From: an uncultured Oribacterium sp.
Lineage (GTDB): Bacteria > Bacillota > Clostridia > Lachnospirales > Lachnospiraceae
NCBI GenBank assembly: GCA_946413525.1
Contig: CAMKKZ010000016.1
Span: 1 to 64,000 of the forward strand
Direction of reading: 5' to 3'
Length of the DNA: 64,000 bases
Shown one piece after another: positions 3,022-49,704 of this stretch (positions are counted from its first letter, which is position 1; the number at the start of each line of letters is the position of its first letter). Made by a program: the position numbers and the translations under genes. Under the pieces are notes generated by a model. The model was not told the origin of the DNA and did no database searches. It saw nothing but the letters and a program-made list of their open reading frames with translations.

Positions 3022-3132
3022 TTCCCTCCTCCAATTCTAACTATGTCAGACTCTTACTGTACCAAATTTCTATATATCAGATTTCTTTATACAGATCTCT
3101 TAATATTGGATTTCCTGTATCAGATTGCTCTT

Positions 3133-3405
3133 CTAATCAGGGCGAATGTAAGCCGCCTTGATTTCATAACATACCGTACCGCCAGCCAGTTAATTCGGCT
3201 TCCCTTCCCCTGTCAGAGCGAGCTCAAGCCGCCCTGATTTCAAGAGTCATAAATCAAGACCTCTATTACAGTGTTTTTTTAACCGCTGTAATTCCTGACA
3301 AACAGCGGCGGTATTGCATGCTATACGGTTCCTCCGTCAGAATGACTGTTGCCCGATCTGATCTCATGAAAAAGCAAACCGCCCGCAAGGCAATCCGGCT
3401 CCCTC
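3133..3405 (-). repeat. Diverged copies (3-4) of the ~70-bp interspersed hairpin repeat in the dhaK-dhaL spacer
   Basis: AATCAGGGCGAATGTAAGCCGCCTTGATTTCATAAC..., CCCCTGTCAGAGCGAGCTCAAGCCGCCCTGATTTC..., CTCTATTACAGTG...CTGTAATTCCTGACAAACAGCGGCGGTATTGCATGCTATACGG, GTCAGAATGACTGTTGCCCGATCTGATCTC...AACCGCCCGCAAGGCAATCCGGCTCC. Confidence 0.6.
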
Positions 3406-5936: not shown

Positions 5937-5946
5937 AACTATTTCT

Positions 5947-6016
5947 CCCCTATCAGAGTGGGTTTTGACCACACTGATTTCATGAAAAGCCGATGCGGCA
6001 TCGCATCAGCAAGGCT
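5947..6016 (-). repeat. Interspersed hairpin repeat, variant B, supplying the RBS of the acetyltransferase gene
   Basis: CCCCTATCAGAGTGGGTTTTGACCACACTGATTTCATGAAAAGCCGATGCGGCATCGCATCAGCAAGGCTC. Confidence 0.75.
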
Positions 6017-6083
6017 CCTCTGTAAAAAAACACCCAAAACATTTTACATATTTCTTTCCAAAAAATCAAAGGCCACGTGTCTA

Positions 6084-6118: not shown

Positions 6119-6151
6119 CATCCGGAATCCTTATCGGATTCCTGCTTACTT

Positions 6152-9100
6152 TTACTGCCCCGTCAGGGCGCCATTAGCGTCCACCATGTGGCCGTCCGGC
6201 GTCCTTGTGTTCCGGAGCAGCTGCCCCGTCACGTCAAAGCAGTACTTCTTCCCGTCCTTCTCAACCCAGCCCGTCAGCATCACGCCGTTTCCGTCGAAGC
6301 AGAAGATATCCGGCCCGATCTGCTGCCAGCCCGTCAGCATCTCGCCCTGCACGGGGAGCAGATAATACCAGTTGTTGAAGGAATAGATCCACCCCTGGTC
6401 CATCATGCCCGTCGTATCATTCATATGATACCACTTTCCGTTCACAGAGGCCCAACCGCGCGCGTCCGTGCTGTCCGGCTTTCGGAGATACCAGATGTTC
6501 TCCCGGAGCTCCCAGACGGAACCCGGGTAAGTATCGGCAGAAGACTGGAACGGCCGGATCTGGGACGGCGTAATGGTGGACACGCCGCCATTCTGGAGGA
6601 TGTTGGGGTTGAAGCCGCCTCCCCAGCCGCCGGAACTGCCGCCTCCGCCGGAGGATCCGCCTCCTCCGCCTCCTCCGCCGCCGCTGCTGCTTTTCCTCTT
6701 GACCTGGATCTGGACGCTCGTACTGACTTCCTTCCCGTTATAGGCTGCCTTCACCGTAAGCTTTGTGGTGCCGACGCCCACGCCGGTGATCTTTCCGGTA
6801 GAGCTGTCATAGCGGATCACATCCGTATCATAGCCGGAAACCGTGATCGTGGCGGGGATGTCGGAGGGCTTCAGGGTGATCTTCAGCGTCGTCGTGTCGT
6901 CTACCTTGATCTCAGAAGATTCCGGCGCCGCGCTTACACTCTCAAGCGTCTTGCTTTCCGAGTCTTCCTTCACCGTGATCTCTGTGCTGGTACTCACTTC
7001 CTTCCCGTTGTAAGCGGCCTTCACGTTAATCTTGCTCGTACCAATCCCCACGCCGGTGACCTTTCCTGTCGACCTGTCGTAGCGGATCACCGCCGTGTCA
7101 TAGCCGTATACCGTCACGGCGGCATCGAGGCCGGAAGGCTGCACGCTGACCGTCAGCGTCGTCTCCCCCCCTACCTTGATTTCTGAAGAACCCAAAACGG
7201 CGCTTACGCTGCTGATCTCGTCGTCACCCGATGCGTTCTTCGACACCTTGATCGTCACGCTGTCTGTAAACTCCTGTCCATTGTAGCTGGCTTTCACCGT
7301 CAGCGTAGTCGTCCCCTCGGCGAGGCCTGTCACCTTGCCGCTGGACTTTGTATAGCTTATCACCTTCTTGTCATAACCGGAAACCGTGATTTTTGCCCCA
7401 ATATCGGCAGGCTCCGTCGTGACCGTAAGGACCGTCTGCCCGCCCAGGCCGATCAGCGTCTTCCCAAGGGACGCCTTCACGCCGGTAAGAACCTTATCTT
7501 CCTCCCCGGTCACCGTCACCGACAGCGGCTTCGCCGTCTCTATGGATCCGATGCCCGCGTAAAGACTGGTCGTCCCCTCCTTAAGGCCCGTGAGCTTTAC
7601 CGTATAGCTGTGTTTCGAGGTATTCCGCGATGACACGGCAGCCTTCACGGTACCCACATCCCCAAGCTCGCTGAAGCTCGGAGTATGGGACGAATTCTTC
7701 AGGTTCACTTCGAAATTATCCGGCAGGGCCGTGAGTTCGATGGTCTTCGTGCTGCCCTTCGCGACGCGGATCTCCGTTTGTGCCCAGCTCAGGCTGCTCA
7801 GCGCGCTGTTCTTCACCGTCACCTTGTAGAGTGCCTCCACGCCCTTGTCTTTGAGCCGGATGTAGATTTCCTGATCCTCGCCGCTCTCATTACTCTGGGC
7901 GGTAAAGAGCTGAAGCGTCGTACCGGATCCCGACACATCGCGCCGGAGACAGGTATCGCTTTCCTCCACGACCTTGCCCCCGACAATGTATGTCGGTTTG
8001 CCGGAGAACCTCGTCCCCCGGATGGAAACGCTTTCCCCATGATTCAGAGTATAGCTTCCGCGGATCGTCCCGGTCTCGACCGTGACCTTTGCCTCCGCTG
8101 TGATGCTCTTCCCGTTCAGGCTGGCCGTCACCCGGACCGTCGTGCTCCCTGGCCCGGCGCCCCGGACCGTGGCGGACGCGCCGCTTGCCTCCACCGCGGC
8201 CACGCCCTTGTCCAAAGTTTCATATTTGAAAGCGACCTTCGAGGCCGCGGAGGACGGCGTGGTCTTCACCGTGACCGTCAGCTTCTCCGAACCCGCCAGC
8301 GCGAGGCTGAGGCTCGACTTCGAGAAAGCAGCGCTGTCCAGCGTCTCCTCTCCATCCGGAACCACTTTTTCCGTCACCGTAATGCTGAGGGCCGTCGTTG
8401 TTCTGACGCTTCCCACAGCCGCCTGCACGCTCAGGGTTCCCCCGGTCTTGCCGCTCACCGTAAGCTGCCAGCCGCCGTCTGTCTTCACGGCGCTAATGTC
8501 TGCATCGCCGCTGCCCGACTTCGTAAATGTCGGCTCATCGCTGCCTGTGAAGTCCGCCGGTGTTCCCTTGAGAAGGACAGTGGTCGAGGCGCCCTGTTCC
8601 ACCTCCAGGGAAGCCTGCCCGAAAGCGAGCGACTTCAGCGCGCTCCCCTCTACCGTCACCGTAAGGGCAGAGGAAGTAGAAATGCTGCCGACCGCGGCCT
8701 GCACGCTGACCGTCCCGTTATTTTTTCCCGTCAGCGTAAGCTCCCAGCCCTCCGAGGTCTTCATGGCACTGATATCCACGGTCCCGCTCCCCTGTCTCGT
8801 GAAGGACGGGATCCCGTCGGTATCGAAATTATCCGGAGCTGCCTTGAGCAGCACCGTGGCCAAGCCTCCGGAGGCTACGCTCACGCTGCTCTGCCCCCAG
8901 GAAAGGGCGTTCAGCCCGTTGGCCTTCACCGTCACCTGCCAGGTCCGCTCCACCCCATTGTCCTGAAGCTTCACATAGGACACGCAGTCCTCCGTGGACT
9001 TATTGGATAATGCTTTAAGCACCAGCCTCGTGGAGTTCAGGCTCGCGATGGAAAGGCAGGCGTCGGCCGCGGTGCTTTCCGCGCCGTCCACGTAGATCTT

Positions 9101-12100
9101 CGGGGATGTGCCGAAGCTCGTTCCCCCGATTTCCACATTTTCACCCCTGGAAAGGGTATAGGACTCGTCCACCACCGCTTCCACCGTCACCTCGTAGGAA
9201 GCCTTAACCGTCTTCCCGTTATAGATGGCCGTGGCGGTGATGGTCGCCGTGCCAGGTCCCGCTCCCCGAATCTCGCCACCGGATACGGATACCGCCTTCG
9301 TATTGGAGCTTTCGTAAACGAGGCTCCCGGCCGGCAGGGTAATGTTTGTAGGAACGGGCGTGCAGGTCGGAGCGTCCGTCTCCCCGATTGAAAGCTTTGT
9401 CTTGTAATTGCTCAGTTTGATGCTTTCGATCTCGTCCGCGTCCACATCCAGCACCTCCACGGCAATCTGCGCCGTGGCGTTCGCGTTGTCGTTGGATTTT
9501 ACCGTGACCGTGGCTGTGCCGGCGATATTATAGGATTTCACGATTACCTTGCTTCCGGACCGCTCCGCCGTGACCGCGCCCGCCGGCGAGGATGAAACGC
9601 TCACCTTGAAGCTCTGGTTCGTGGCATTTTGCGGCAAGATGCTGACTGCCGCCTCCTGGCTTGCGTTCCTCCCCAGCGTCATACTGGTGGGTTCTGCAGA
9701 CAGCCCGGTCACGTTCACCTTGTTTGGATCCTCCAGCACATGGATGACAAGCTCCGAGGTCTTCCTGCCAAAGGAGGAGGTGGCCGTCACCGTAACATTG
9801 TCCTTTCCGGCCTGGTAGCTCTCCGCCCGGATATTGACAAGGGGATAGCCATCCCCGTCCTTTGACGTCGCAAGGGTCAGGATGTCCTCCTCGGACGCGG
9901 CCACCTCCGCGCCGCGGCTTGATGTGCCGGAGGGCTCGAAGCCAAGGCGGAACTGCCCCTCGGTTCCCTCCTTCATGTCAATGGAAGCGCCATTCGAAAG
10001 CTTCTTCCAGCTTCCGCCTGACTGCGCCTGCTCCCAGTAAATGCCGGTCACCTCGGCGCTCTCATCCTTTACCACAATCTTCAGCTTCGCGCTCACCGTC
10101 GCGTCGTCCTTCGAGACAGCCGTAAGCTCCGTTTCCCCGATTCCCGCGGCCGTCACCTTCAGCTTCCCGGCCGACACCTCCTCAAAGGTCGCGACAGAGG
10201 TATTGGCAATACTGTAGGACAGGTTTTTCACGCTGGCGCCCTCCGGCACCACGCTGACGCCGAAGGTGTCCACATTGGCCGTACCGCTGCCCGTCGTATA
10301 ATGGATCAGGCTGACCTCGCTCCGCTCAAAGCGGATTCCTGTTATGTTTGTCTTTGTCACCGTGACCGTATAGGTCTTTTGCTCGGAAATCTTGTTGTCT
10401 CCGGCATCCGGATAAGTGACATTCACAACAATGTCCCCGTTCCCGGCCGCAAGGCCCTCCACCTCATAAGTCACGGAGCCGTCCGATTCCGTTGCGATCT
10501 TCTTTACGCTCAGCTTTCCGCTGCTGTTGTCCGTCACGGTCAGGACAGAATTTGTACTTGATCCGCCCAAGGCCGGCACAGCCGTTACATTAAAGCGGAA
10601 TTTCTCGCCCACCTCCAGCTCGGACTGCATATTGGAGACCGTCATCTTCGGTATGACCCGCACATCCTGTGTCGTGGACTTTGTCACACCGTCCGAAGAT
10701 GTCAATGTAATGGAAAGGGTCGCGTTTCCGGGAATGCTGCCGGCTTTTACCCGCAGGACATTCTTTCCCTCATTCTCTTCAAAATCCGCCCAGGCGCCGC
10801 CGGATTTCCCCGAAAGGAACACGCTGGCACTATCGTCAATCACGCCGCTGTTGGCCATGCTCCAGATACGGGACGGCGTTACCTTCAGCGTCGTCGGAGT
10901 ATGTGACACCACCAGCTGCTTCTCCTCGCCCGGATAAAGCTCCAGCGCCCCGCTGTAGCTTTCCTCGCTCCCGTCCTCGTTAAGAAGCTGAAGACCGACT
11001 CCATCGATTGAAATGGAGGAAACCTTCACATAATACTGGATCAGGAGCTGTGACCCCGCGACCGATGGGTCACTCATAGCAAAGTAGGCATACTCTTCTC
11101 CCGCGTTTTTCGCCTCAATCTGCACATGCAGCACGCCGTCCGCATAAGTTGAACTCCCGATATCGATAATGTCGGAGCTGTCGCCGCCCCCGCCATATCC
11201 ATAACCCATGACAAAATCGCCGCTCAGGTTCTCGAAGCTCAGGTTGTCCGAATAGAATGCGCCCTTGTCCAGACTGATTGGCTGAGAATTCATCTCATCC
11301 GTCACCGTGAGGTCAATCTGGGCGCTGAACTCCGCTCCTGTACCTGCCTGTTTCGCCGTCACGCGGATCTTCGTATTTCCGGCCGCCTTGGCGCGGATCC
11401 TGCCGGTTTTCCCCGCCCCCGCTATCACCTCCGCCACGGACGGGCTGGAGCTTTCCACAGAGTACGTAATTCCCTCGGTCAGATTATTCAAAGTGGCGGG
11501 CACACAGCTTGCCTCATAATTCACGATCGTCCCGATTGACACGCTCTGCTTACCTGAAGGGGAAAGGTTCAGACCGGTAAGCGTCACGGAAGACCGATGC
11601 TTAACGCTTACGGGAATGGCAGCCTGCTTTCCGGTATCGGCCATCACGGCAATCAAGGTATCCGATCCTTCGGTTACCGGAGTGACCGTGACATTGACCG
11701 TACCCTTGTCCCCCACACCGGTTTTTGCAATGCTTATAATCCCACTGTTCTGTGACAGGCGTATCTCGTTCACGCTGGGTCTTGCCTTGTCAGACGGGAG
11801 ATCCTCATTGTCAAAGATCAGGCTGAGTTCCTGCGCGCCGTCCTCCATCACCAGGTCAAGAGTCGACTCGCTCCAGTTCATGTTCCAGTTCACTACCTTG
11901 ATTTCAATCGTCAATGAAAGAAGGGCATTTTCACCGCTTGCGTCCTTAATCACAAGTTCTCTGCTTTTTTCCGTAGCTTTTATACCTTTTACGGTAATCA
12001 CGCCGTCCCCCAGCGTCAAACTCATTTCCTTTCTTATGAGATGATCGTCATCAGACGTGATATCAACCTCTTTGTTTTCGGCATCGCGATAATAGATTTT

Positions 12101-14950
12101 TGAGCTGCTCGTAATTCCGTGAACATTCCATGTCCGGCTTTCGCCCTCCCGGAGGCTGCCGCTGTACTTCGGTGCCTCGTTATCCACATGCACGACAATT
12201 TCCGCGGATGCGCTTCCCCCATTGGGCTGCACAGCCGACAGCTTGAATTTATAATCCGCCTTAACATTGCCTGTGTCTGTTATCGTCAATTGGAAATTAT
12301 TCCCATTTTCGCTGCTTGTAATATCAGGCGACACTGTCAATGTAAGTGGTATAGTCTGGTCAGCAATGATCGTACTTAAGTGTATATCCTGTGCATAGCC
12401 GGGCAGCACCTGGCCATCGAGCCTGATCGTGCCTTGCGTCGGAATCGTCACCTCCTTCGTGGGCAAACTGAAGGAAAGACTGTTCTTGTCAACATAAACA
12501 TTATAAGCCCCCAAAATCTTCCCGGATGAATCAAAGACAATGACATCCTGCCCCTTGTTCTCCGACAGAACCGTACCTTTGATCGTCAGAGAGCTTCCAT
12601 CATGACTTAACTCAGTAAAATTATCTCCAAGCGCTTGAACCCTTGCTATATTGCTGGAATAGCTGATGGTCCTCTCCTCATTAAGCTGCAGGCGCAATGA
12701 TTTGAATTCCGTGCTATAGTCCTGAATGACCAGGTTCATGAAACCTTCGATTTTATAATAATTGCATGATAAATAAATTGTACCTGCGGAAACAACCTCG
12801 CTTGAACTGAATTCAAGCCGCCCTCCGGTTACACCTGTGGATCTGCTTACACTGTTAGCCTTAACCGTGAGTGTACGCTTGTCGCTTGTATAGGTATTTA
12901 CAAAAATAAGCGGGTTGATCATATTTCTGGTATATACAATTTGCCTGGTTCCGCCCCAGTGCGTAGGCGGAAGAACAAAAATTGGATCCGTACTTGGATT
13001 TGCTATAGGGTAATAAATAATGTTATCACTGGTAGTATAATTGTCCCTGTCATTCCATTCACCATCAAGAAAAAGCTCCGCCATCTCTGTCTCGGACTCA
13101 GATTCAGATTCAGATTCTGACTCAGACTCGGATTCTGATTCTGACTCAAATCCTGATTCCGTCTCCAGACCGGATTCCGCTTCAGACTCCTCCAAGCCTT
13201 CCTCCGAAGCCTCGGCACTTTCCACAAGCTCCTCCGCCGCGTCAGAGCTCCCCTCCGGGCTTATCTCGCTCTCCAAAGTCTCACTCTCGAAGGCCTCACT
13301 TTCGGCCGATTCACTCTCCGCCTCCGTGGAAGCCTCAAGCTCCTCCACCGTTTCCTCCGGCAGGATACCAAAACCGCCTTCCTCTACGACACCGGAATCT
13401 TCCGAGGCGTCCCCAGAATCCTCCTCCGAATAATCCGCGGAAGATCCCTCTTCTGCGAATCCTTCCGTATATTCGGACTCCTCAATGAATTCCGATTCCC
13501 CCGCAACATTGGATTCGCTTGTATATTCAGATTCCTCCGGATATTCTGAACCTTCGGTATATCCGCCGGGATCACTTTCAGAATCCACACCGGAACCCTC
13601 TTCAGAATATTCCTCCAAGCTTTCTTCGGGATATGCCATAGAACCATCCACGGGAACTGCCTCCGGATTTTCCTGTGAGCCTTCTTCGGTATACAGTCCG
13701 TCCTCTCCCGTACCTCCGACGCCTTCCTGGCCGTCCGGATTCTCCGTATACTCCATGCCATCAGTCTGGCCGCTTTCCTGGCCCTCTCCGTAGCCCCCAT
13801 CAACGGATTCTCCCTCCGTGCCGGAATATTCCATGTCGGAAGCATCGCCGGGATTTCCTTCGCCTTCCTCAAAGGTCCCATTTCCTTCCCCGGACTCATT
13901 TCCTTCCGAATACACATCCTCCGGATTTCCGGGCTCGTCCCCTTCCGCGGAGCCATCCTTCGGATTTCCGGGCTCGTCCCCTTCCGCGGAGCCATCCTCC
14001 GGATATCCGGACTCGCTTCCTTCCGAATACCCATCTTCCGGGTTCCCGGACTCATATTCCCCGCCATCGGAAAAATCGCCTTCGGATACATTCTCCCCGC
14101 CCTCATCGTCGGAAGAACCGTCCGAATAATCATCCGGGGATCCATCCTGAACATCACCGGAATCACCGTTGTATATATCTGTTGAATAATCAGGCTCGTT
14201 TATATATTCTTCATCCGATGAACCGTCGGAATTATCCTCAAGGGACTCATCAAAAGGAACATCATTTTCATCCTCTAAAATTTCCTCAGAGCCCTCTCCC
14301 GTCGAAGCATCGGAGCCGGCATCCGCATTTACGTCTGCATCCGTGTCTTCTTCGTCTCCGGGAAAGTCCTCATCATTGTTCGATCCATCATCTGACAAAT
14401 CATCCTCGAACAACTCCTCATCAGATAATTCCTCGTCCACTGACCCGTCATCCGATAATTCATCGTTTAATTCTATATTATCCGATTCTTCATTAATTGC
14501 TTCTTCGTCAGCTGAATCTTCATTAATTGATTCTTCGTCCGGCAATTCATCATTGCTTAATTCATCGTCAAACAATTCTCCATCCGGCAAGTCATCTCCG
14601 GGGAATTCCTCATCCTCCGTGGAGCTTTCTTCTTCTACGGATTCCTCGTCCAAGGCTTCTTCATCCCCAAAATCCCCGGAATCCTCTTCTCCCTCGTTGA
14701 ATTCGCCGTCTTCCTCAAGGACCTCCGCGCCCTCTTCAAAGGATTCTCCATCCTCTTCCCCGGTATCCTCCGCTTCCTCTCCTTCGAAAGCATCCGCGTC
14801 AAGGGAGACCAGTGCCTTTGTCTTCACGCCCATGGCGTCATCCGCGTCCTGGGAAGCATCGCCGGACCCAATGGCAAAGTGCGCCACATTTACCGCCAGA
14901 AATACGCCCAGTAGGATGGCCAGCAGCTTTCTCCACGACCTTCTCATCAT
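6152..14950 (-). CDS. Giant secreted/surface protein 1 (2932 aa): signal peptide, hyperacidic Ser/Glu/Asp domain, Big2/Ig-like repeats, Gly-rich linker, choline-binding-type cell-wall repeats
   Basis: N-term MMRRSWRKLLAILLGVFLAVNVAHFAIG; (SE)n tract; repeated VTVTG..L..GTAKITVTA-type Ig-like blocks; GGGGGGGGGSSGGGGSSGGWGGG; C-term GWASVNGKWYHMNDTTGMMDQGWIYSFNNWYYL. Confidence 0.9.
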   Translation of the reverse strand: MMRRSWRKLLAILLGVFLAVNVAHFAIGSGDASQDADDAMGVKTKALVSLDADAFEGEEAEDTGEEDGESFEEGAEVLEEDGEFNEGEEDSGDFGDEEALDEESVEEESSTEDEEFPGDDLPDGELFDDELSNDELPDEESINEDSADEEAINEESDNIELNDELSDDGSVDEELSDEELFEDDLSDDGSNNDEDFPGDEEDTDADVNADAGSDASTGEGSEEILEDENDVPFDESLEDNSDGSSDEEYINEPDYSTDIYNGDSGDVQDGSPDDYSDGSSDDEGGENVSEGDFSDGGEYESGNPEDGYSEGSESGYPEDGSAEGDEPGNPKDGSAEGDEPGNPEDVYSEGNESGEGNGTFEEGEGNPGDASDMEYSGTEGESVDGGYGEGQESGQTDGMEYTENPDGQEGVGGTGEDGLYTEEGSQENPEAVPVDGSMAYPEESLEEYSEEGSGVDSESDPGGYTEGSEYPEESEYTSESNVAGESEFIEESEYTEGFAEEGSSADYSEEDSGDASEDSGVVEEGGFGILPEETVEELEASTEAESESAESEAFESETLESEISPEGSSDAAEELVESAEASEEGLEESEAESGLETESGFESESESESESESESESESETEMAELFLDGEWNDRDNYTTSDNIIYYPIANPSTDPIFVLPPTHWGGTRQIVYTRNMINPLIFVNTYTSDKRTLTVKANSVSRSTGVTGGRLEFSSSEVVSAGTIYLSCNYYKIEGFMNLVIQDYSTEFKSLRLQLNEERTISYSSNIARVQALGDNFTELSHDGSSLTIKGTVLSENKGQDVIVFDSSGKILGAYNVYVDKNSLSFSLPTKEVTIPTQGTIRLDGQVLPGYAQDIHLSTIIADQTIPLTLTVSPDITSSENGNNFQLTITDTGNVKADYKFKLSAVQPNGGSASAEIVVHVDNEAPKYSGSLREGESRTWNVHGITSSSKIYYRDAENKEVDITSDDDHLIRKEMSLTLGDGVITVKGIKATEKSRELVIKDASGENALLSLTIEIKVVNWNMNWSESTLDLVMEDGAQELSLIFDNEDLPSDKARPSVNEIRLSQNSGIISIAKTGVGDKGTVNVTVTPVTEGSDTLIAVMADTGKQAAIPVSVKHRSSVTLTGLNLSPSGKQSVSIGTIVNYEASCVPATLNNLTEGITYSVESSSPSVAEVIAGAGKTGRIRAKAAGNTKIRVTAKQAGTGAEFSAQIDLTVTDEMNSQPISLDKGAFYSDNLSFENLSGDFVMGYGYGGGGDSSDIIDIGSSTYADGVLHVQIEAKNAGEEYAYFAMSDPSVAGSQLLIQYYVKVSSISIDGVGLQLLNEDGSEESYSGALELYPGEEKQLVVSHTPTTLKVTPSRIWSMANSGVIDDSASVFLSGKSGGAWADFEENEGKNVLRVKAGSIPGNATLSITLTSSDGVTKSTTQDVRVIPKMTVSNMQSELEVGEKFRFNVTAVPALGGSSTNSVLTVTDNSSGKLSVKKIATESDGSVTYEVEGLAAGNGDIVVNVTYPDAGDNKISEQKTYTVTVTKTNITGIRFERSEVSLIHYTTGSGTANVDTFGVSVVPEGASVKNLSYSIANTSVATFEEVSAGKLKVTAAGIGETELTAVSKDDATVSAKLKIVVKDESAEVTGIYWEQAQSGGSWKKLSNGASIDMKEGTEGQFRLGFEPSGTSSRGAEVAASEEDILTLATSKDGDGYPLVNIRAESYQAGKDNVTVTATSSFGRKTSELVIHVLEDPNKVNVTGLSAEPTSMTLGRNASQEAAVSILPQNATNQSFKVSVSSSPAGAVTAERSGSKVIVKSYNIAGTATVTVKSNDNANATAQIAVEVLDVDADEIESIKLSNYKTKLSIGETDAPTCTPVPTNITLPAGSLVYESSNTKAVSVSGGEIRGAGPGTATITATAIYNGKTVKASYEVTVEAVVDESYTLSRGENVEIGGTSFGTSPKIYVDGAESTAADACLSIASLNSTRLVLKALSNKSTEDCVSYVKLQDNGVERTWQVTVKANGLNALSWGQSSVSVASGGLATVLLKAAPDNFDTDGIPSFTRQGSGTVDISAMKTSEGWELTLTGKNNGTVSVQAAVGSISTSSALTVTVEGSALKSLAFGQASLEVEQGASTTVLLKGTPADFTGSDEPTFTKSGSGDADISAVKTDGGWQLTVSGKTGGTLSVQAAVGSVRTTTALSITVTEKVVPDGEETLDSAAFSKSSLSLALAGSEKLTVTVKTTPSSAASKVAFKYETLDKGVAAVEASGASATVRGAGPGSTTVRVTASLNGKSITAEAKVTVETGTIRGSYTLNHGESVSIRGTRFSGKPTYIVGGKVVEESDTCLRRDVSGSGTTLQLFTAQSNESGEDQEIYIRLKDKGVEALYKVTVKNSALSSLSWAQTEIRVAKGSTKTIELTALPDNFEVNLKNSSHTPSFSELGDVGTVKAAVSSRNTSKHSYTVKLTGLKEGTTSLYAGIGSIETAKPLSVTVTGEEDKVLTGVKASLGKTLIGLGGQTVLTVTTEPADIGAKITVSGYDKKVISYTKSSGKVTGLAEGTTTLTVKASYNGQEFTDSVTIKVSKNASGDDEISSVSAVLGSSEIKVGGETTLTVSVQPSGLDAAVTVYGYDTAVIRYDRSTGKVTGVGIGTSKINVKAAYNGKEVSTSTEITVKEDSESKTLESVSAAPESSEIKVDDTTTLKITLKPSDIPATITVSGYDTDVIRYDSSTGKITGVGVGTTKLTVKAAYNGKEVSTSVQIQVKRKSSSGGGGGGGGGSSGGGGSSGGWGGGFNPNILQNGGVSTITPSQIRPFQSSADTYPGSVWELRENIWYLRKPDSTDARGWASVNGKWYHMNDTTGMMDQGWIYSFNNWYYLLPVQGEMLTGWQQIGPDIFCFDGNGVMLTGWVEKDGKKYCFDVTGQLLRNTRTPDGHMVDANGALTGQ
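7812..8063 (-). other. Non-Big2-looking module (SYTL...VTVK type), second copy in giant 1
   Basis: GSYTLNHGESVSIRGTRFSGKPTYIVGGKVVEESDTCL...YIRLKDKGVEALYKVTVK; a related copy at about 8925..9165 and in giant 2. Confidence 0.55.
13091..13147 (-). repeat. Ser-Glu dipeptide tract (SE)n in giant 1
   Basis: ESESESESESESESESETEMA encoded. Confidence 0.85.
13900..14060 (-). repeat. 39-bp (13-aa) in-frame tandem repeat, about 4 units, in acidic domain of giant 1
   Basis: ESGNPEDGYSEGS/ESGYPEDGSAEGD/EPGNPKDGSAEGD/EPGNPEDVYSEGN. Confidence 0.8.
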
Positions 14951-15189
14951 CCTGCCCCCTTCTTTCCCAAAGTCAAATTCCGAAACCCTTCAGTACCCTG
15001 TTCACAATCGCCCCCGACGACAATGTGAGCGTTCAGGGACGTTCCTAGACACTCCGCGCCTTGTCCGCCGCCTGGGTTTCGGGAAATCACCAGGTATAAA
15101 CTATGCATCAGGCATAGTTTATACCGTATTTGGCGCATCCCTATGGGATGTGTCCTGAAAAAATATGCCTTCAGGTATATCTTTTCAGG

Positions 15190-15223
15190 ATTTAACCGCA
15201 GCTTTCCTTGTGCAGCGGTTAAA
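15190..15223 (-). terminator. Hairpin in the intergenic region between giants 1 and 2
   Basis: TTTAACCGC...GCGGTTAAA. Confidence 0.4.
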
Positions 15224-15292
15224 CCCACCTTTTCTTTTTCCTGTCTCCGCGTCTTTTTTACCCTGATTTCAAATTTCAATAAATATCTGTAA

Positions 15293-15323
15293 CTGCCAGA
15301 GCGGCTTTTGACCGCTCTGGCAG
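15293..15323 (-). terminator. Strong hairpin downstream of giant gene 2
   Basis: CTGCCAGAGCGG-CTTTTGA-CCGCTCTGGCAG, 12-bp perfect stem; also resembles the interspersed repeat (followed by CTGACATAACAAACCACCTGTGGCGGGACAATCCGGCT). Confidence 0.7.
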
Positions 15324-15366
15324 CTGACATAACAAACCACCTGTGGCGGGACAATCCGGCTTATCC

Positions 15367-18300
15367 TTATTGCCCCGTCAGGACCCCGTTCCCATCCACC
15401 ATATGTCCGTCCGGCGTCCTGGTGTTCCGAAGCAGCTGCCCCGTTACGTCAAAGCAATACTTCTTTCCGTCCTTCTCGACCCAGCCGGTCATCATCACGC
15501 CGTTTCCATCGAAACAGAAAATGTCCGGCCCGATCTGCTGCCAGCCCGTCAGCATCTCGCCCTGCACAGGGAGAAGATAATACCAGTTATTGAAGGAATA
15601 GATCCACCCCTGATCCATCATGCCCGTTGTATCGTTCATATGATACCACTTGCCATTCACCGAGGCCCAGCCCTTCACGTCCGTGCTGTCCGTCTTCCTG
15701 AGGTACCAGACGTTGTTCCGAAGCTCCCAGACAGAACCCGGATAGGTATCCGCTGAGGACTGGAACGGCCGGATCTGAGATGGCGTAATGGTGGACACGC
15801 CGCCATTCTGGAGGATGTTGGGGTTAAAACCGCCGCCGGAGGATCCGCCGCCTCCGCCGGAGGAGCTTCCTCCGCCGCCTCCGCCGCCTCCGCCGCTGTT
15901 TCTCTTCTTAACCTGAATCTGGGTGCTGGTGCTGACTTCCTTCCCATTGTAGGCCGCCTTCACCTTGATCGCACTGGTGCCGACACCCACGCCGGTAATC
16001 TTTCCGGTTTCACTGTTATAACGGATCACATCCGTATCGTAGCCGGAAACGGTGATCGTGGCCGGGATGCCGGAAGGCGTCACCGTGATCTTCAGGGTCG
16101 TTGTATCATCCACCCGGATCTCGGAGGACTCCGGCGCCGCGCTTACACTCTTCAGCACCTTACTGTCCGAATCCTCTTTCACCGTGATCTCGGTGCTCGC
16201 GCTCAGCTCCTTTCCGGCATAAGTGGCCTTTACAGTGATCTTGCTCGTGCCCGCGCCGACACCTGTAATCAGACCGCTCGCGCTGTCATAGCTGATCACC
16301 TTCTTATCATAGCCGGAAACCGTTATCTTCGCGTCAATTCCGGAGGGTGCCACCGTGATCAGGAGCGTCGTCGACTTGCCCACTCCGATTACGGAGGACT
16401 CCGGCGCCGCACTGAGACCGGTGATCCCGCTGTCCGTTCCATCCCCCACCGTGATCTTTACGCTGTCCGTGAAGGACTTCCCATTGTACGTAGCCTTCAC
16501 AGTAAGAGTAGTAGTCCCGTCTGAAAGGCCCTTCACCGTCCCGGTAGATTTATCATAGCTTATTACTTTCTTATCGTAGCCCGAAACCGCCACGGTCGCC
16601 CCGATATCTGCCGGATCCGTTGTCACGGTAAGGCTTGTCTCCTCGCCCACGCCGATTGTCGAAGCGGCCAATGTCGCGGTCACGCCGTTGAGTACCTTAA
16701 CCTCCTCAGCATTCACCGTAATGCTGAGCGGCGTAGCCGTCTCTATAGATCCTATTCCGGCATAGAGAGTGGTCGTGCCTGCCTTCAGGGCCGTGATCCT
16801 CACCGTATAGCTGTGGCTGTCCGCATTCCGGCTGCTCAATGCCGCTTTCGCGGTTCCCGCCGTCCCCATCTCGCTGAAGGTCGGTGTATGGGCACTGTCC
16901 TTCGTCTCCAGGGCGAAGTCTTCGGGTTCTACAACGAGCTCCACTGTCTTCTTCTCACCTTCTTTCAGGCTAAGCTCCGTCGTCCCCCATGTCAGGCTGC
17001 TCAGGGCGCTGCTCTTCACCGTCACCTTGAAGTACACGTCCTGGCCACGATCCTTCATCAGGATATAAACCTCCTGATCCTTTGCCTCCTCGTTAAGCTG
17101 CGCGGTAAAAACCTGGATCGCACTCCCCGAGGCAGACTTGTTGCGTTTCAGGAAGGTTCCCGACTCTTTGACCTTTTTGCCGTTCAAGATATACACGGGC
17201 GTGCCGGAGAACTTCGTTCCCCGGAGAGATACGCTTTCCCCATGGCTGAGCGTATAGCTCCCCCGCACCGTGACCTCGGCCACGCTGATCTCGGCCTGTG
17301 CCGTAGCGGTCTGCCCATTGAAGCTGGCCGTCACGGTGACCGTTGCCGTGCCGGGCCCTGCCCCTCTGACCGTAGCGGTAGCGCCATTGGCCTCCACATA
17401 GGCAACGCTTTCATCAGAGCTTTCAAAGCTGTAGCTTACATTGGACGCGGCGGAAGACGGGGTGGTTTGCGCGCTTGCCGTCAGCTTCACACTGTCCGCC
17501 AGGGCCAGCTCCGAAGGATTTGCCGGAGAAATCGAGACACTGTCCAGCGTCTCCTCTCCGACAGGCACCTCCTTCTCGCTCACGGTAATGCTCAGTGCCG
17601 TCTTCGTGCTGACATTTCCGACCGAGGCCTGTACTGTCAGGCTCCCGGCCGTCTTGCCGCTGATCGTGACCAGCCAGCCGCTGTCCGACGTAACGGCGGA
17701 CAGCTCCGCGTTGCCGCTGCCCTGCTTCGTAAAGCTGGGCGCGCCATCCGTGGAGAAGCCCTCCGGGCCGCCGTTCAGGAGCACTGAAGTGCTGCCGTCC
17801 TGAGCCACCGTAACAGAGCTCTGTGACCAGCTCAGGCTGTTCAGCGCCGCACCCTCCACCGTAATCGTCAGATTGGACGTGGTCGACACACTGCCGACCG
17901 TTGCCTTTACGCTGACAGTTCCTTCCGACTGGCCGGTAATTGTCACTTGCCAGCCCTGATCCGTCTTCACGGCGGACAGTGCCGCACTGCCGCTGCCCTG
18001 TTTCGCAAAGCTCGGCTTCTCATCCGTATCAAAATTATCCGGACCGGCCTTCAGGAGTACCGTGGCCGTCCCGCCGGAACCCACCTCCACGCTGCTCTGA
18101 TCCCAGCCTATGGACGTAAGCCCGTTGGCCTTCACCGTCACCTGCCAGGTCCTGGTAACACCGTTGTCATCCAGTTTCACATAAGAAACGACGTCATCCG
18201 TGGATTTGTTGGAGAGTGCCTCGAGGACAATGCTTCCCGAACTCAGGCTTGCGACCTTGAGGCAGGCATCCCCGCCGTTCGTGCTTTCCTCGCCATTCAC

Positions 18301-25190: not shown

Positions 25191-28100
25191 CTACTTCGTG
25201 ACCTTCGCTTTCTTATTCAGGCCCGCCTTCTGGAACAGGGTCTTATATGCCTTGACCTTGGCGGACGGAACCTTGACCCTGGCGGAGGACGGAACGCCCG
25301 TGAAGGCCTTCGCCCCCACCGTCTTGATGACCTTGGACTTCAGCGTAATATTCTTCAGCTTCTTGTCGCCGTTAAATGCACTCTTTCCAATGGTCTGAAG
25401 CACGGTGGAATTGATCGTCAGCGTGGAAAGCTTCGTGCAGCCCGCAAAGGCGCTGGCGCCCAGGGTCTTCAGCTTCTTGCCGATCGTCACCTTCGTAAGC
25501 GCCGTACAGCCGGAAAAAGCGTTGTCGCCGATGGCCGTCACGGTATTCCCGAGGGTGACTGTCTTTAACTTGACGTCCTTGAAGAACGCCTTCTTGCCGA
25601 TGCTCGTCAAAACCGTGGATTTGATTGTCAGCGTGGCAAGCCTCTTGCAATTCGCAAAGGCACTGGCACCGATGGTCTTCACCTTCTTGCCGATCACGAC
25701 CTTCGTAAGTGCCGTGCAGCCGGAGAACGCGCTGGCGCCGATGCTGGTCACCGTGTTTCCGATCGTGATGGTCTTCAGTGCCGTATTCTTAAGGAAAGCG
25801 CTCTTCCCAATCGTTGTAAGCGCCGTGGACTTGATCGTCAGCGTGGCAAGCTTTGTACAGTTCGCGAAGGCGCTGGCGCCAATGGTCTTCACCTTCTTGC
25901 CGATCACGACCTTCTTAAGCCTCTTGCAGCCCGAGAACGCGCTGGGGCCGATGCTGGTCACCGTATTGCCGATGGTAATGCTCTTCAGAGCCGTATCGTT
26001 GATGAATGCGCTCTTCCCAATTGTTGTAAGCGCCGTGGACTTGATCGTCAGAGTCGCAAGCTTCGTACAGTTCGCGAAGGCGCTGGCGCCGATGGTCTTC
26101 ACCTTCTTGCCGATCACGGCCTTTGTCATCACCTTGCAGCCCGAAAACGCGTTGGCTCCGATGCCGGTCACATTATCACCCAGGGTGATGGTCTTAAGCT
26201 TCGTATCCTTAAGGAACGCGCTGCCTCCAATCGTTGTGACATTCGCGCCAAGGGTCACGCCGGTAAGTTCCGTACAGTTCGAAAAGGCATTCGCCCCGAT
26301 GCTTATCACATTGCTGCCGATTTTCACCGTCTTTAGCTTCGCGTAATCCTGGAAGCCCTTGGCTGCCACAGAGGTCACGCTCCATGTTCTCCCTCCAATC
26401 GCGACTTCATCCGGTATCGTCACGCTGACAAGCTCCGGGTTGCCGCCCGCGGCGCTGACCGTCAGCTTTGAGTTGTCCAGTACGGTATACAGAATGTCCG
26501 AAACCTTGAACGCCGTTCCCTTCTCAGGAACCCTGATGCTGAATCTCGCGTTTACACTTCCCTCATAGTTCCCGGCTCCGGCAATGACCACCGTGCCCGT
26601 TCCGATATTCTTATTATTTTTGTAGCTTACCCGGTAATCCGTATCCGGCTTCAGGACCGTCTTTTCATGCAGCACCGTAGGCACAGGCTTTTTCGCCTTG
26701 CCATCATAGATGTAGCTTGTGACATCCAGACTGACCTGCAGAGTGGAAACATCCGTCTTTGGCACGGTCACCGTGCAGCTTGAAGACAGGCCGTTATGTG
26801 TCGTTGCGGTAATGACCGCGTTCCCCGCAGCCACGCCGGTCACGATTCCGTTGGCGACCGTAGCCACGGCAGTATTGCTGCTTGTCCACGTCAATGTCTT
26901 GTTTGTGGCATTGGAGGGGCTGATGGTGGCCGTCAGCGCTTTCGTATCGCCGAAGGTTTTGTCCATTGCCATGGACGTTTTGTCCAGCGTGACGCTGGCC
27001 GGAAGGATCGGATTCACGGTGATCTGGCAGTTTGCCGTCTTCCCGTTTGACGTGCTTGCGGTAATGACCACCTTGCCGGGCGACACAGCCGTCACCGTCC
27101 CGTTGGAAACCGTTGCGATCGTCGTATTGTTGCTGCTCCAGGTCACCGTCTTGTCGCTGGCATTAGCCGGCGCAACAGTGGCCGCGAGCGTTACCGTCGC
27201 GTCATCGTAAACGGACAGGGCCGTCTGGTTCAGGGTGATGGTTTCCGGATCGACCACCACCTTGATGCTGCAACTGGCCGTCTTGTCCCCGTCCACCGTC
27301 TTCACGGTAATGGTGGCCGTCCCAACCCCGGTTCCTGCCGATTTGGCCGTCACGAGCCCGCTTGCGGAAACCGTAGCGACCCCTTCGTCACTGCTCTCCC
27401 AGGTCACGGATTTGTTGGTCGCGTTCGCAGGCGCGATCGTGGCCGTAAGCTGTGCCATCTTTGCCGTCCCATTAAGGTGCAGCTCCGCAGCCGTCGGCGT
27501 AAGGGTAACGCCACTGACCGGCACATATTTTTCATTCACGGTCACATCGCACGTGGCAGAAAACTCCGTCCTGTCAGCCGAGGTCGCCGTAATGACCGCC
27601 GTCCCTTTCCCGACCGCAGTCACCTGCCCGTTGGAGACCGTGGCCACTGCCGTGTTGCTGCTGCTCCAGTTCACGTTCTTGTCCGTCGCGTCCGCCGGCT
27701 CAAGCGTGGCCGTAAGCTGCGCCGTATCCCCTTCTTCCAGAGTGATGCTGCTCTGGTCCAGCGTGACTCCCGACACATGGATCGGAGCCTGATACGCTCC
27801 GAAATATTTGAAGCTCGCCACCTTGGTGACGCCCGTAATGCCATCGTCCGCATTGCTGGAAATGTACAGGTAATATTGCCCGGGCGCCTTCAGGGTTCCC
27901 TCCAGGCTGCCGGGAAAAACATTGAACTGCACAGCGGTGCCCGGCGAGGTCAACTGGTTAATATATTTGATATTTGACGCAAGCAGCCCGCTCGACGAGG
28001 AATACTCTCCTGAGAGAAGGAGCACGAGGTACTCCCTGTCCTTCTGCGCGGCATTGTATCCCACATTCAGGCGAAGCCCATCAACATAGAAATCCTGAAT

Positions 28101-34831: not shown

Positions 34832-34987
34832 GCCGCATCCACAAAGCCTATCCTTAAAGCTTATTCATAAAGCTCATTCATAAAATTTATTCATAATGCT
34901 CATCCATGATGCCCGTCCATAAAGCTCATCCATAATTCCGGTCAATAAAATTTATCAATAATGCCTATCAATAAAGCTCATTCAATA
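34832..34987. repeat. 13-bp tandem repeat array (about 12 units)
   Basis: agcctatccttaa agcttattcataa agctcattcataa aatttattcataa tgctcatccatga tgcccgtccataa agctcatccataa ttccggtcaataa aatttatcaataa tgcctatcaataa agctcattcaata. Confidence 0.9.
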
Positions 34988-39820: not shown

Positions 39821-39948
39821 TGGCCACTTCAATACATGACCGCATCTATATATAACTACTTCAATGTATAACCGCTTCTATGCTTTACCACTTCACTGCA
39901 AGACCTTTTCAGTGCATGACTGCGTCTATGCTTTACCATTTCAATGCA
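39821..39948. repeat. 16-bp tandem repeat array (8 units in exact register)
   Basis: tggccacttcaataca tgaccgcatctatata taactacttcaatgta taaccgcttctatgct ttaccacttcactgca agaccttttcagtgca tgactgcgtctatgct ttaccatttcaatgca. Confidence 0.92.
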
Positions 39949-40364: not shown

Positions 40365-41696
40365 TCAAGGCGATCCTGACGATCCTTGTCCGATCATCGG
40401 AAGGATCTCCTCCTTAAAATATTCTTTTGTCAGCGGCCTGTCATAATCCCAATAAATCACCCTGACGCCATTCGCCCTGCATCGTCCCAGCTTCCGGGCA
40501 TCCCGGCGTTGGTTATCCTTAAATCCGTCTACGCCCCCGAAAAACTCCACCGATTCGTAATGCTGCCGGCCCTGGTACTCGATCGCAACATTTTCCGAGG
40601 GGATAAAGATATCCAGCCGCTGCCCAAAAAGGAATTCGGCCTGATATTGGAACTTTGCGTCCGGAAAATAGCTTTTCACAATCGAATATGCTTTCTGCTC
40701 CGAGACCCATTTCGGATTGGTCATGCCTTTTCCAATCAATGTCTCATAAATTCCATCCCGTTCCGCTGCAATTTTCCTGTGATATTCCTGCAGGAGCTTT
40801 CGAAGCGGGATGTCCGGAATGCTGCGCAGGCTGCGGTATTCCGTCTTGAAACAGTTGACCTGGTACATCAGATGTTCAATCTTTGCGATTCGATGATATT
40901 TCAGAAGGAATGCAAGAGGAGCGAGCGGCGCGTCCCGCTCATTGTCGGGAGAAAAAGCCTTGCCCGGAAACGAACCGGCATTCGAAAACGAGCCGGCATT
41001 CGTAAGCGAAATGCTGTTCGAAACCAAGGAATTATCCGCAGCCAAAGGCTTGTCCAAAAACGAAGGATCTCCCTCAACCAAAGCTTTATCCGGAAACAAT
41101 GAATTATCCGCAAGCAACGAATCATCCATAAACAAGGGCCTGCCCGGAAAGGCAAGGAGTTCAATCAGATGAGAATGCTTTCCGGAAATCACCACCCTGA
41201 ACAGCCCATCCCCCAACTCCTCCGGTTCGTAAAGCATCCCGGCGAGATGGTGATTGATATCCCCCTTTTTCTTATCCGGATAACGGTAACGGAACTCTAT
41301 TTTCTCCCCTATCAGAGTGGGTTTTTGCCACTCTGAATTCTGACATAGCGAACCGCCTGCGGGGCAAACCGGCTCCCCTATCAGAGTGGGTTTTTGCAGC
41401 TCTGAGTTCTGACATAACGAACCGCCCGCGGGGCAAACCGGCTCGTCCTCCGCCAACCCGTCCCAAACTCCGAACCTTTCAACATCCTCCCGGAGCGAAT
41501 CGATCCGAAGATGCAGCCCCTTCCTGACCTCCCGGTTTCTGCGCTCCCGGATTTTTTCCTTCTCCCTATGCGTATACAGCGCGTCCCGTTCCATCAACTG
41601 CTGCTCCTTGAGGAACAGGTCGCCCCCCTCTCCCATTCCCCAGAAACAGTCGTATTTTTCCATGTACTCCGAAAAGTCCTTCAGACGAAGGAACAT
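40365..41696 (-). CDS. Hypothetical protein with C-terminal restriction-endonuclease-like (DUF559/Vsr-like) domain and internal repeat insertions
   Basis: FGQRLDIFIPSENVAIEYQGRQHYESVEFFGG...RDARKLGRCRANGVRVIYW; ATG 41696 preceded by GGAGAG (track start TTG 41720). Confidence 0.75.
   Translation of the reverse strand: MFLRLKDFSEYMEKYDCFWGMGEGGDLFLKEQQLMERDALYTHREKEKIRERRNREVRKGLHLRIDSLREDVERFGVWDGLAEDEPVCPAGGSLCQNSELQKPTLIGEPVCPAGGSLCQNSEWQKPTLIGEKIEFRYRYPDKKKGDINHHLAGMLYEPEELGDGLFRVVISGKHSHLIELLAFPGRPLFMDDSLLADNSLFPDKALVEGDPSFLDKPLAADNSLVSNSISLTNAGSFSNAGSFPGKAFSPDNERDAPLAPLAFLLKYHRIAKIEHLMYQVNCFKTEYRSLRSIPDIPLRKLLQEYHRKIAAERDGIYETLIGKGMTNPKWVSEQKAYSIVKSYFPDAKFQYQAEFLFGQRLDIFIPSENVAIEYQGRQHYESVEFFGGVDGFKDNQRRDARKLGRCRANGVRVIYWDYDRPLTKEYFKEEILPMIGQGSSGSP
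40945..41160 (-). repeat. 18-bp in-frame (6-aa) tandem repeat, about 11-12 units
   Basis: cccggaaacgaaccggca ttcgaaaacgagccggca ttcgtaagcgaaatgctg ttcgaaaccaaggaatta tccgcagccaaaggcttg tccaaaaacgaaggatct ... Confidence 0.9.
41306..41443 (-). repeat. Two tandem 69-bp copies of the interspersed hairpin repeat, variant A, in frame inside a CDS
   Basis: Each copy encodes EPVCPAGGSLCQNSE(L/W)QKPTLIG. Confidence 0.92.
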
Positions 41697-41714
41697 CTGA
41701 CGTCTCTCCATCTT

Positions 41715-41824
41715 AATCAAACTTTATCTAACTCAATTGAACTGAATCGAACTGAATTAAACTTTATCTAACCCAATTGAACTGAATCGAACTTTATCTA
41801 ACTCAATCGAACTTAATCAAACAT
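41715..41824. repeat. 10-bp tandem repeat array (11 units) filling the intergenic spacer
   Basis: aatcaaactt tatctaactc aattgaactg aatcgaactg aattaaactt tatctaaccc aattgaactg aatcgaactt tatctaactc aatcgaactt aatcaaacat. Confidence 0.92.
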
Positions 41825-46391: not shown

Positions 46392-46677
46392 CCCTCTATT
46401 AAAGTGGCTTTTGGGCTATTCTAATTGCTGACAAACATCTGCGGTATCGTAAGCTATACGAATCCTCCCCTATCAGAGTGAGTTTTGGCCATTCTGAGTT
46501 CCTGACAAACCGATGCGGCATCGCATCGTTAAGGCTCATCTATCAGAGTGGTTTTATTGTCACTCTGAGTTCTGGTATAGCGAACCGCCTGCAGGACAAA
46601 CCGGCTCATTTTATCAGAGTGGTTTTATTGCCACTCTGAGTTCTGGCATAGCAAACCGCCTGCAAGACAAACCGGCT
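46392..46677 (-). repeat. Array of 4 copies of the interspersed hairpin repeat (variants C, B, A, A)
   Basis: Unit starts about 46392, 46467, 46537, 46607; conserved (T)ATCAGAGTG...CACTCTGAGTTCT core. Confidence 0.88.
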
Positions 46678-46952
46678 CTATCAAAAAGCCGGACCCGAAA
46701 GGGCATAACCCCCCCTTAAGTCCGGCCGTTATCTTTCACGAATGAAATATGTTCTTGATTACAAAAGAGGAAACAGCTATGTTTGCCATTATATTCATCT
46801 CTCGAAAATCACAATTTATGCTCTCTATATCGTCACGCCATTCGGAAATATCAACGCCTTCAGAAGGACATAAATACGAATGAGATTATAGCAAAATAAT
46901 AGAACCGGCTCAACAGATTTTTCTATCGGATTGCCGACAAAAACCATGAAGA

Positions 46953-47007
46953 AGCCATGTAAGAGCCATGTAAGAGCCGTGTAAGAGCCATGTAAGAGCC
47001 GTGTGTA
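46953..47007. repeat. 11-bp tandem repeat (5 units)
   Basis: agccatgtaag agccatgtaag agccgtgtaag agccatgtaag agccgtgtgta. Confidence 0.93.
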
Positions 47008-47016
47008 AAAATCATG

Positions 47017-47868
47017 TTACCAGATACGCAGAATTTGTTCATACAACATGGTGTATTTTTCGGAAAGCTTGTTGTTTGCATGATAATGCCCGAAGAACCA
47101 CTGCCGGAAACCGAGCTTTTCGCGGACATTTTCGAAGTATTCCGTCAGGCTGTTCCTGTCTGAGAACCCCGCAAGGGCAGCAATGCTTGAGGGCGCGCAG
47201 TGGGATATTACGAAATCGACATTCCACCCGCATGCCGACAAACTTGCGACGCCCCTTTCCATCTCTTCTTCAGAAGGAAGCTCTTCCTCCCACCAGCTTA
47301 AATGCTCTACCCGAAAAAAGGCTCCGGTATCCCGAAGCCTTTTTTGCGCCCTTTTGAACTCTTTTTCCGTCCTGTATTCGTAAGGCCGCAGGATCCCGCC
47401 TGAGATGTCATGACTCTTTGCCCCGCCAAACACAAAGAAGGAAAGGCCTCCGAGCTCAAACACATACCCCCTCATCAGGTGAAACACATTCTCCCTGAGC
47501 TGATGCGCTTTTCCGCCGTGAAAATCCACTTCCGGATACGCGCGGCAAAGACGATCGAAGTTTTCGTGGTTCCCGTCACAAAAAAGCAGCGTGAAGTTTT
47601 TCTCCAGGAACCAGTCCAGCCAGTTTTTTTCTTCCTTTGACTCCCCGTGCGCCAAAAAGATCTTATCCTTGAAGGCGCTGCCTGTATCGTCATAACGGCT
47701 GTCGTAGTTCAGGACACCGCCAAAATCTCCGCAGATGATCACAAAATCGTCACGTGTCATGTCTTTTTGCTCAGGGAAACTTTCCATGTTCAGCCTCCTG
47801 CCGAATCCGTCCACAGAACGGAAGCCAAACGGACTTGGCCCATGCGTATCTCCGGTAATATAGATCAT
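47017..47868 (-). CDS. Metallophosphoesterase
   Basis: MIYITGDTHG...IICGDFGGV...LFCDGNHENFDRL...FFGHYHANNK. Confidence 0.9.
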   Translation of the reverse strand: MIYITGDTHGPSPFGFRSVDGFGRRLNMESFPEQKDMTRDDFVIICGDFGGVLNYDSRYDDTGSAFKDKIFLAHGESKEEKNWLDWFLEKNFTLLFCDGNHENFDRLCRAYPEVDFHGGKAHQLRENVFHLMRGYVFELGGLSFFVFGGAKSHDISGGILRPYEYRTEKEFKRAQKRLRDTGAFFRVEHLSWWEEELPSEEEMERGVASLSACGWNVDFVISHCAPSSIAALAGFSDRNSLTEYFENVREKLGFRQWFFGHYHANNKLSEKYTMLYEQILRIW

Positions 47869-49583: not shown

Positions 49584-49593
49584 ATAATAACCT

Positions 49594-49662
49594 CCCCTGT
49601 CAGAGTGGGGGTTTGCCGCTCTGAATTCTGACATAGCGAACCGCCTGTGGGGCAAATCGGCT
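49594..49662 (-). repeat. Interspersed hairpin repeat, variant A, directly before the start codon of 47910..49583
   Basis: CCCCTGTCAGAGTGGGGGTTTGCCGCTCTGAATTCTGACATAGCGAACCGCCTGTGGGGCAAATCGGCT. Confidence 0.9.
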
Positions 49663-49704
49663 CCTCGGATCAGGACGGTTCTTGACTATTCATTCCATTC
49701 GCCT

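Follow-up and report, generated by a model that had tools for sequence, protein, structure and literature searches.

The 451-codon ORF on the minus strand of the window (the whole 64,000-nucleotide stretch of DNA analysed here) carries an insert that is very probably a tandem pair of dispersed DNA elements, short, non-autonomous and MITE- or REP-like; we call this element type A, and it appears to be read through in frame. The preliminary description had reported two tandem 69-nt copies at 41306-41443, lying in frame within a 451-aa ORF, and both statements were borne out. Tandem Repeats Finder (TRF), run on the window, reported at 41304-41444 a repeat with a score of 247, made up of 2.0 copies of a 69-nt period; this is the same insert. 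The two head-to-tail copies are 93% identical, and translation of the minus strand from 41720 to 40365 yields a single open frame, ...LAED-EPVCPAGGSLCQNSELQKPTLIG-EPVCPAGGSLCQNSEWQKPTLIG-EKIEF..., in which 2 x 23 residues (93-138) are read without a frame break and are followed by E139. With a GAG at either border, the limits of the insert may be shifted by three bases, so that 41304-41441 and 41307-41444 are equally valid. The consensus pattern of the repeat found no match in 100 shuffles of the window. The elements of this locus are as follows.

40365..41720, minus strand: host ORF, 451 codons from a TTG start; the first ATG is at 41711
41376..41444, minus strand: first type A unit in protein order (residues 93-115), EPVCPAGGSLCQNSELQKPTLIG; covariance match C16:41373-41444, 92.7 bits
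41307..41375, minus strand: second type A unit in protein order (residues 116-138), EPVCPAGGSLCQNSEWQKPTLIG; covariance match C16:41304-41375, 103.9 bits
41304-41306, minus strand: closing GAG (E139) of the insert
40401..40757, minus strand: C-terminal nuclease-like part of the host ORF, residues 322-440

The coding score of the host ORF is positive on either side of the insert. The ORF has no match in Pfam, NCBIfam or the PDB, and only residues 322-440 have homologues in other genera, found in 15 of 397 genomes of the family (E <= 1e-5). No homologue among these 397 genomes covers the insert site; the best of them (L267) stops at a contig edge short of it. The comparison with insert-less homologues proposed in the preliminary description comes from another host, IspH (see below). 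An AlphaFold2 model of the window protein, computed without an alignment, had a mean pLDDT of 33 and was set aside. The same ORF also contains, at 40968-41135, a linker made of degenerate 18-nt (6-residue) minisatellite repeats.

The repeat is abundant in the source genome. A DNA search with a single unit gave at least 75 matches, and a covariance model identified at least 150 full-length type A copies in the 4.0-Mb genome, all with E <= 1.7e-12; the census combines searches with fetched regions, and its totals are lower bounds. The type A unit measures 69 nt and contains two hairpins; one frame is free of stops, on the strand that reads GAG-CCGATTTGCC...GATAGAT-GAG; its consensus on the coding strand is GAGCCGATTTGCCCCGCAGGCGGTTCGCTATGTCAGAATTCAGAGYGGCAAAAACCCACTCTGATAGATGAG. 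One hairpin is formed by 7 to 9 bp (TCAGAGTGG/CCACTCTGA) and is preceded by a weaker one, and flank statistics place sharp unit borders at CTC/GAG on both sides. Close pairs of copies share the same orientation in 39 of 39 cases and lie exactly 69 nt apart in 30. Neighbours within an array are more alike than units of different arrays (85% versus 76% identity, p = 1e-11), which suggests local duplication or conversion. Two sister types occur in the genome, type B (GAGCCTTGCTGATGCGATACCGCATCGGTTTGTCATGAAATTAGAGTGG...TAATAGGGGAG), with a 70-nt period and an in-frame TGA, and type C (GAGCCGTATAGCTTGCGATACCGCAGCTGTTTGTCAGGAATTAAAGCGG...TAATAGAGGAG), also with a 70-nt period. Five congeners (G004, G011, G013, G014 and G016) have a more distantly related element, about 65 nt long. 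Type A itself was not found in the genomes of 60 relatives, the one weak match, in a coding stretch, being chance-like. Viral contigs gave no match to the repeat, and Rfam at its gathering score reported nothing in the window, the matches at loci of the source genome and its congeners being below-threshold chance ones only. We also looked in unrelated genomes for the peptide as a conserved domain, the observation that the preliminary description had named as contradicting its interpretation, and did not find it: the 21-base core of the element has a single match outside the source genome in 85,462 species, a lone and chance-like one in Moraxella.

Other members of the superfamily are present in the window.

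46393..46678, minus strand: intergenic array of four units, C, B, A and A (46393-46460, 46465-46537, 46535-46607, 46608-46678)
49592..49663, minus strand: lone type A unit immediately before a start (GGGGAG, 8 nt, ATG of a 557-codon ORF)
5945..6017, minus strand: type B unit directly upstream of a start (GGGGAG, 8 nt, ATG of a 230-codon ORF)
3132..3401, minus strand: decayed A, C and A units, intergenic (3132-3200, 3260-3329, 3330-3401)
15293..15361, minus strand: decayed type A unit, intergenic

These copies are intergenic or lie just upstream of a start codon, so that the earlier statement that the copies elsewhere are non-coding is correct for the window; it does not extend to the genome as a whole, where many copies are coding. 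About 120 copy-bearing regions were fetched, and genes were called in them by a simple codon model trained on their long ORFs. Counting only cases in which the ORF extends for 45 nt or more to either side of the copy, type A lies in at least 36 ORFs of the genome, and the in-gene peptide is often doubled or tripled. The arrays inside predicted genes have one orientation in 43 of 44 cases, and 42 of these 43 are in the same frame; a single array is in the opposite orientation. The 69-nt period and the open frame are kept by all 55 full-length in-gene copies as against 73 of 143 intergenic ones, a contrast that arises partly by construction because the gene caller requires an open frame.

The hosts recognized by Pfam and NCBIfam are varied. 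They include IspH (LytB), RimM, HisD, TatD, PrmC, type III pantothenate kinase, an ECF sigma factor, an AddA/RecB-like helicase-nuclease, an M50 protease, a DnaB_2-domain protein and a LysR regulator, together with ABC ATPases, glycosyltransferases and others, and their family matches are split at the insert. Alignment to known structures breaks at the same place: residues 129 and 186 of TatD correspond to 109 and 117 of 1j6o, residues 45 and 95 of RimM to 61 and 71 of 2f1l, and residues 87 and 155 of HisD to 75 and 78 of 9lbv, while residues 4-22 and 79-338 of IspH correspond to 5-23 and 27-277 of 3dnf. The inserts are more hydrophilic than the host proteins (GRAVY -0.84 versus -0.30).

The clearest view of an empty site comes from ispH. 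As the species is represented by one genome, presence and absence of the insert were compared between species. The gene is found in 16 of 16 congeners, and exactly 46 residues (2 x 23) are absent in all 16, from residue 34-35 of the source protein: the congener proteins align to it up to about residue 35 and again from about residue 81, and in two of the 16 both aligned parts of the gene are contiguous to the base. The source genome has one ispH gene, the other matches to the query covering the repeat peptide alone, and its product is about 60-67% identical to those of the congeners. The ancestral IspH thus probably read ...EPLK-E-RRTVYTFG..., and the gene probably gained 138 nt at a GAG codon.

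The sister types provide a control for readability. Types B and C as they stand cannot be read through, and genes are nearly free of them: in the sampled regions, copies inside genes numbered 67 of 261 for type A, 2 of 143 for type B and 0 of 103 for type C. Because some of these regions had been fetched by peptide similarity, the count was repeated with type A limited to the 150 copies of a model search blind to context. Type A was in genes in 27 of these 150 copies (in 22 genes) versus 2 of 246 for B and C together (Fisher p = 1.6e-10), the B and C set being itself not wholly context-blind, as part of it was drawn from neighbourhoods of A. Both in-gene copies of type B are without the TGA.

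We propose that a type A element landing in the right orientation and phase would allow the ribosome to read through, by virtue of its 23-codon period and open frame, and that each copy would add a hydrophilic stretch of 23 residues (EPICPAGGSLCQNSERQKPTLID) to the host protein. The copies would have arrived by transposition at GAG sites, tandem ones arising by local duplication or by insertion beside the element's own GAG end. The longer proteins would be made and be functional, and the insert would presumably be neutral or mildly costly. The pattern of substitution, analysed in full-length copies without indels, is consistent with this proposal. Divergence from the consensus at codon positions 1, 2 and 3 is 17.1, 16.1 and 16.1% for in-gene copies and 12.8, 13.4 and 12.9% for intergenic copies, and the two groups have the same synonymous to non-synonymous ratio (p = 0.95). 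Substitutions creating a stop are scarcer than expected inside genes (p = 0.0003), in part by construction. An open frame in the right phase is thus maintained in the insert while its residues go unconserved, and the higher divergence of the in-gene copies argues that these are not recent arrivals alone. On this evidence the peptide looks like a tolerated filler and not a domain.

The recurrence of the peptide in so many ORFs, often doubled or tripled, is also what one would expect of a functional module, such as a binding tag or a small domain, spread by selection for a role in the protein. We consider this explanation very unlikely, as the hosts are unrelated enzymes and regulators, the three codon positions diverge equally with a synonymous to non-synonymous ratio like that of non-coding copies, and intergenic copies are far more numerous. 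One could alternatively envision that the units are spliced from the RNA or bypassed by the ribosome, leaving proteins of normal length; the hairpins could help such a process, which would also accommodate insertions within domains of housekeeping enzymes. Frame and stops would then not matter. Yet copies inside genes retain the 69-nt period together with a single open frame, and both type C and the stop-bearing type B are nearly absent from genes. This leaves removal or bypass with hardly any probability. An equally improbable reading is that the invaded ORFs are pseudogenes or artefacts of assembly. The genome is a draft in 70 contigs, and repeats can mislead assembly. However, the copies are 13-16% off the consensus and, since they differ from it, cannot be collapsed or copied reads; moreover, the flanks retain coding signal on both sides with domains intact, and the single ispH has the level of identity to its congeners given above. 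In-frame read-through of an inserted element thus remains the interpretation that we favor.

How the element might move is a separate matter. No terminal inverted repeats were seen in the unit, which has GAG at both ends, and a test for target-site duplication gave a weak NGAG signal in both of two sets (p = 0.013 for each). An autonomous parent would be expected as half-elements on either side of a transposase gene; looking for such an arrangement yielded one doubtful pair. The sole intact match to a Y1 transposase in the genome is a RAYT-like gene of 246 aa (C9:6674-7414, minus strand; L113), with an array of three type A copies beginning about 100 nt upstream; a decayed second RAYT-like copy is at C56:4186-4603. 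As a subsidiary to the read-through interpretation, and not a competitor of it, it is conceivable, if rather doubtful, that this transposase moves the element in a REP-type system. The adjacency of its gene to the array speaks for such a role but could be due to chance given that arrays are common, and several observations speak against it. The RAYTs of other genera are flanked by a different repeat (GGGGACGGTTC...), and a similar one is found beside the RAYT-like gene of the source genome, with GGGGACGGTCCTTTTGTGC repeats downstream; a comparison with congeners did not bear out the link, G016 having a related element but no match to a Y1 transposase; and the unit is without the terminal GTAG or CGTC. 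The RAYT genes of other genera in the family (L190-L195) adjoin a palindrome of the GGGGACGGTTCTTTTGTC type or a similar one, likely a separate REP family.

Types B and C have a habit of their own. Among copies outside genes, 29 of 96 type B and 29 of 69 type C units are followed at a distance of 3-15 nt by the ATG of an ORF of 60 codons or more, versus one case each at the other end; for type A the corresponding figures are 10 of 165 and 4. Ten of 14 congener units are within 15 nt upstream of an ATG. In B, C and the congener type, the unit frequently terminates with a Shine-Dalgarno sequence immediately preceding the gene, and the upstream border of B and C is also AGGAG-like. Members of the superfamily at 5945-6017 and 49592-49663 of the window and at L237-L254 supply AGGAG or GGGGAG Shine-Dalgarno sequences before start codons, and may constitute mobile or regulatory leaders across the genus. 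It is tempting to speculate, although we would put the chances at somewhat less than even, that this is a GAG-directed miniature family with two damage-limiting forms: leaders (B, C and the congener form, D), which would enter Shine-Dalgarno sites and bring a replacement Shine-Dalgarno sequence with them, and type A, which would be fitted to genes by its 23 codons, its open frame and its Glu-codon borders. We hypothesize that one preference for GAG would explain both habits, the Shine-Dalgarno sites and the Glu codons.

These properties invite comparison with known systems. Rickettsia palindromic elements (RPEs), and their Wolbachia counterparts (WPEs), are short repeats found between and within genes, in frame and in conserved proteins, which do not destroy the ORF (PMC2229807, PMC3767692). 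In guanylate kinase, the sole host tested, the RPE is translated and tolerated, and the enzyme is active (PMC2229807, PMC3767692). The parallel with RPEs drawn in the preliminary description holds for behavior, since type A too is found in both intergenic and coding DNA, lies in frame inside conserved genes, on one strand and in one frame, and is absent from orthologues. The two differ in that RPEs are 105-150 bp long, consist of one long palindrome and belong to the Rickettsiales, whereas type A has 69 nt, two short hairpins and GAG-bordered head-to-tail arrays; nor do they share sequence, the core scan of 85,462 species having given no match in Rickettsia. Intragenic REPs with GTAG/CGTC ends occur in ORFs as singles, dimers and clusters encoding 20-30 or up to 43-82 residues, are often linked to a RAYT and are known in several other bacteria; the text of the paper that describes them mentions neither Firmicutes nor Clostridia (PMC3733652). 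These are, however, repeats of 20-40 bp with a terminal GTAG or CGTC, and the 69-nt type A, with its GAG/CTC borders, has neither end motif. The type A family therefore works like RPEs and intragenic REPs and is a member of neither by sequence, length or end motif.

Two further systems deserve mention. Among the Correia elements of Neisseria, which come in 107-bp and 155-bp forms, stop-free species are common in genes and stop-bearing ones almost only intergenic (PMC2229807). This is the same contrast as that between types A and B, but the Correia elements are longer and unrelated in sequence, with classic terminal inverted repeats and TA ends. ERIC, RU-1 and other small mobile sequences of enterobacteria are non-autonomous repeats with ORFs that form in-frame fusions with genes (PMC2759123); small in-frame repeats are common to both cases, but ERIC and RU-1 have 103-168 bp, an unrelated sequence and different hosts. 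We found no earlier report of a family such as type A in this lineage in the open-access literature. The entry of palindromic repeats into genes without loss of frame has mostly been regarded as a speciality of the Rickettsiales, with intragenic REPs scattered elsewhere. Here it is seen in an unrelated lineage and on a larger scale, with built-in controls in the unreadable sister subtypes and an exact empty site in close relatives, so that one can test whether such inserts are selfish DNA tolerated by proteins or the raw material for new parts. Annotators should be warned against taking the 23-residue peptide for a domain.

The genome seems rich in short tandem repeats of other kinds. The window contains minisatellites with units of 10, 13, 16 and 11/22 nt at 41715-41822, 34837-34977, 39824-39895 and 46939-47017, respectively, and its first 124 positions, which are also the start of contig C16, hold 2.4 copies of a 51-nt unit with no mismatch. 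Very long ORFs (2932, 3065 and 1642 codons) at 6140-18138 and 25366-26237 have internal repeats of 210-270 nt, which are partly common to two neighbouring genes about 9.2 kb apart.
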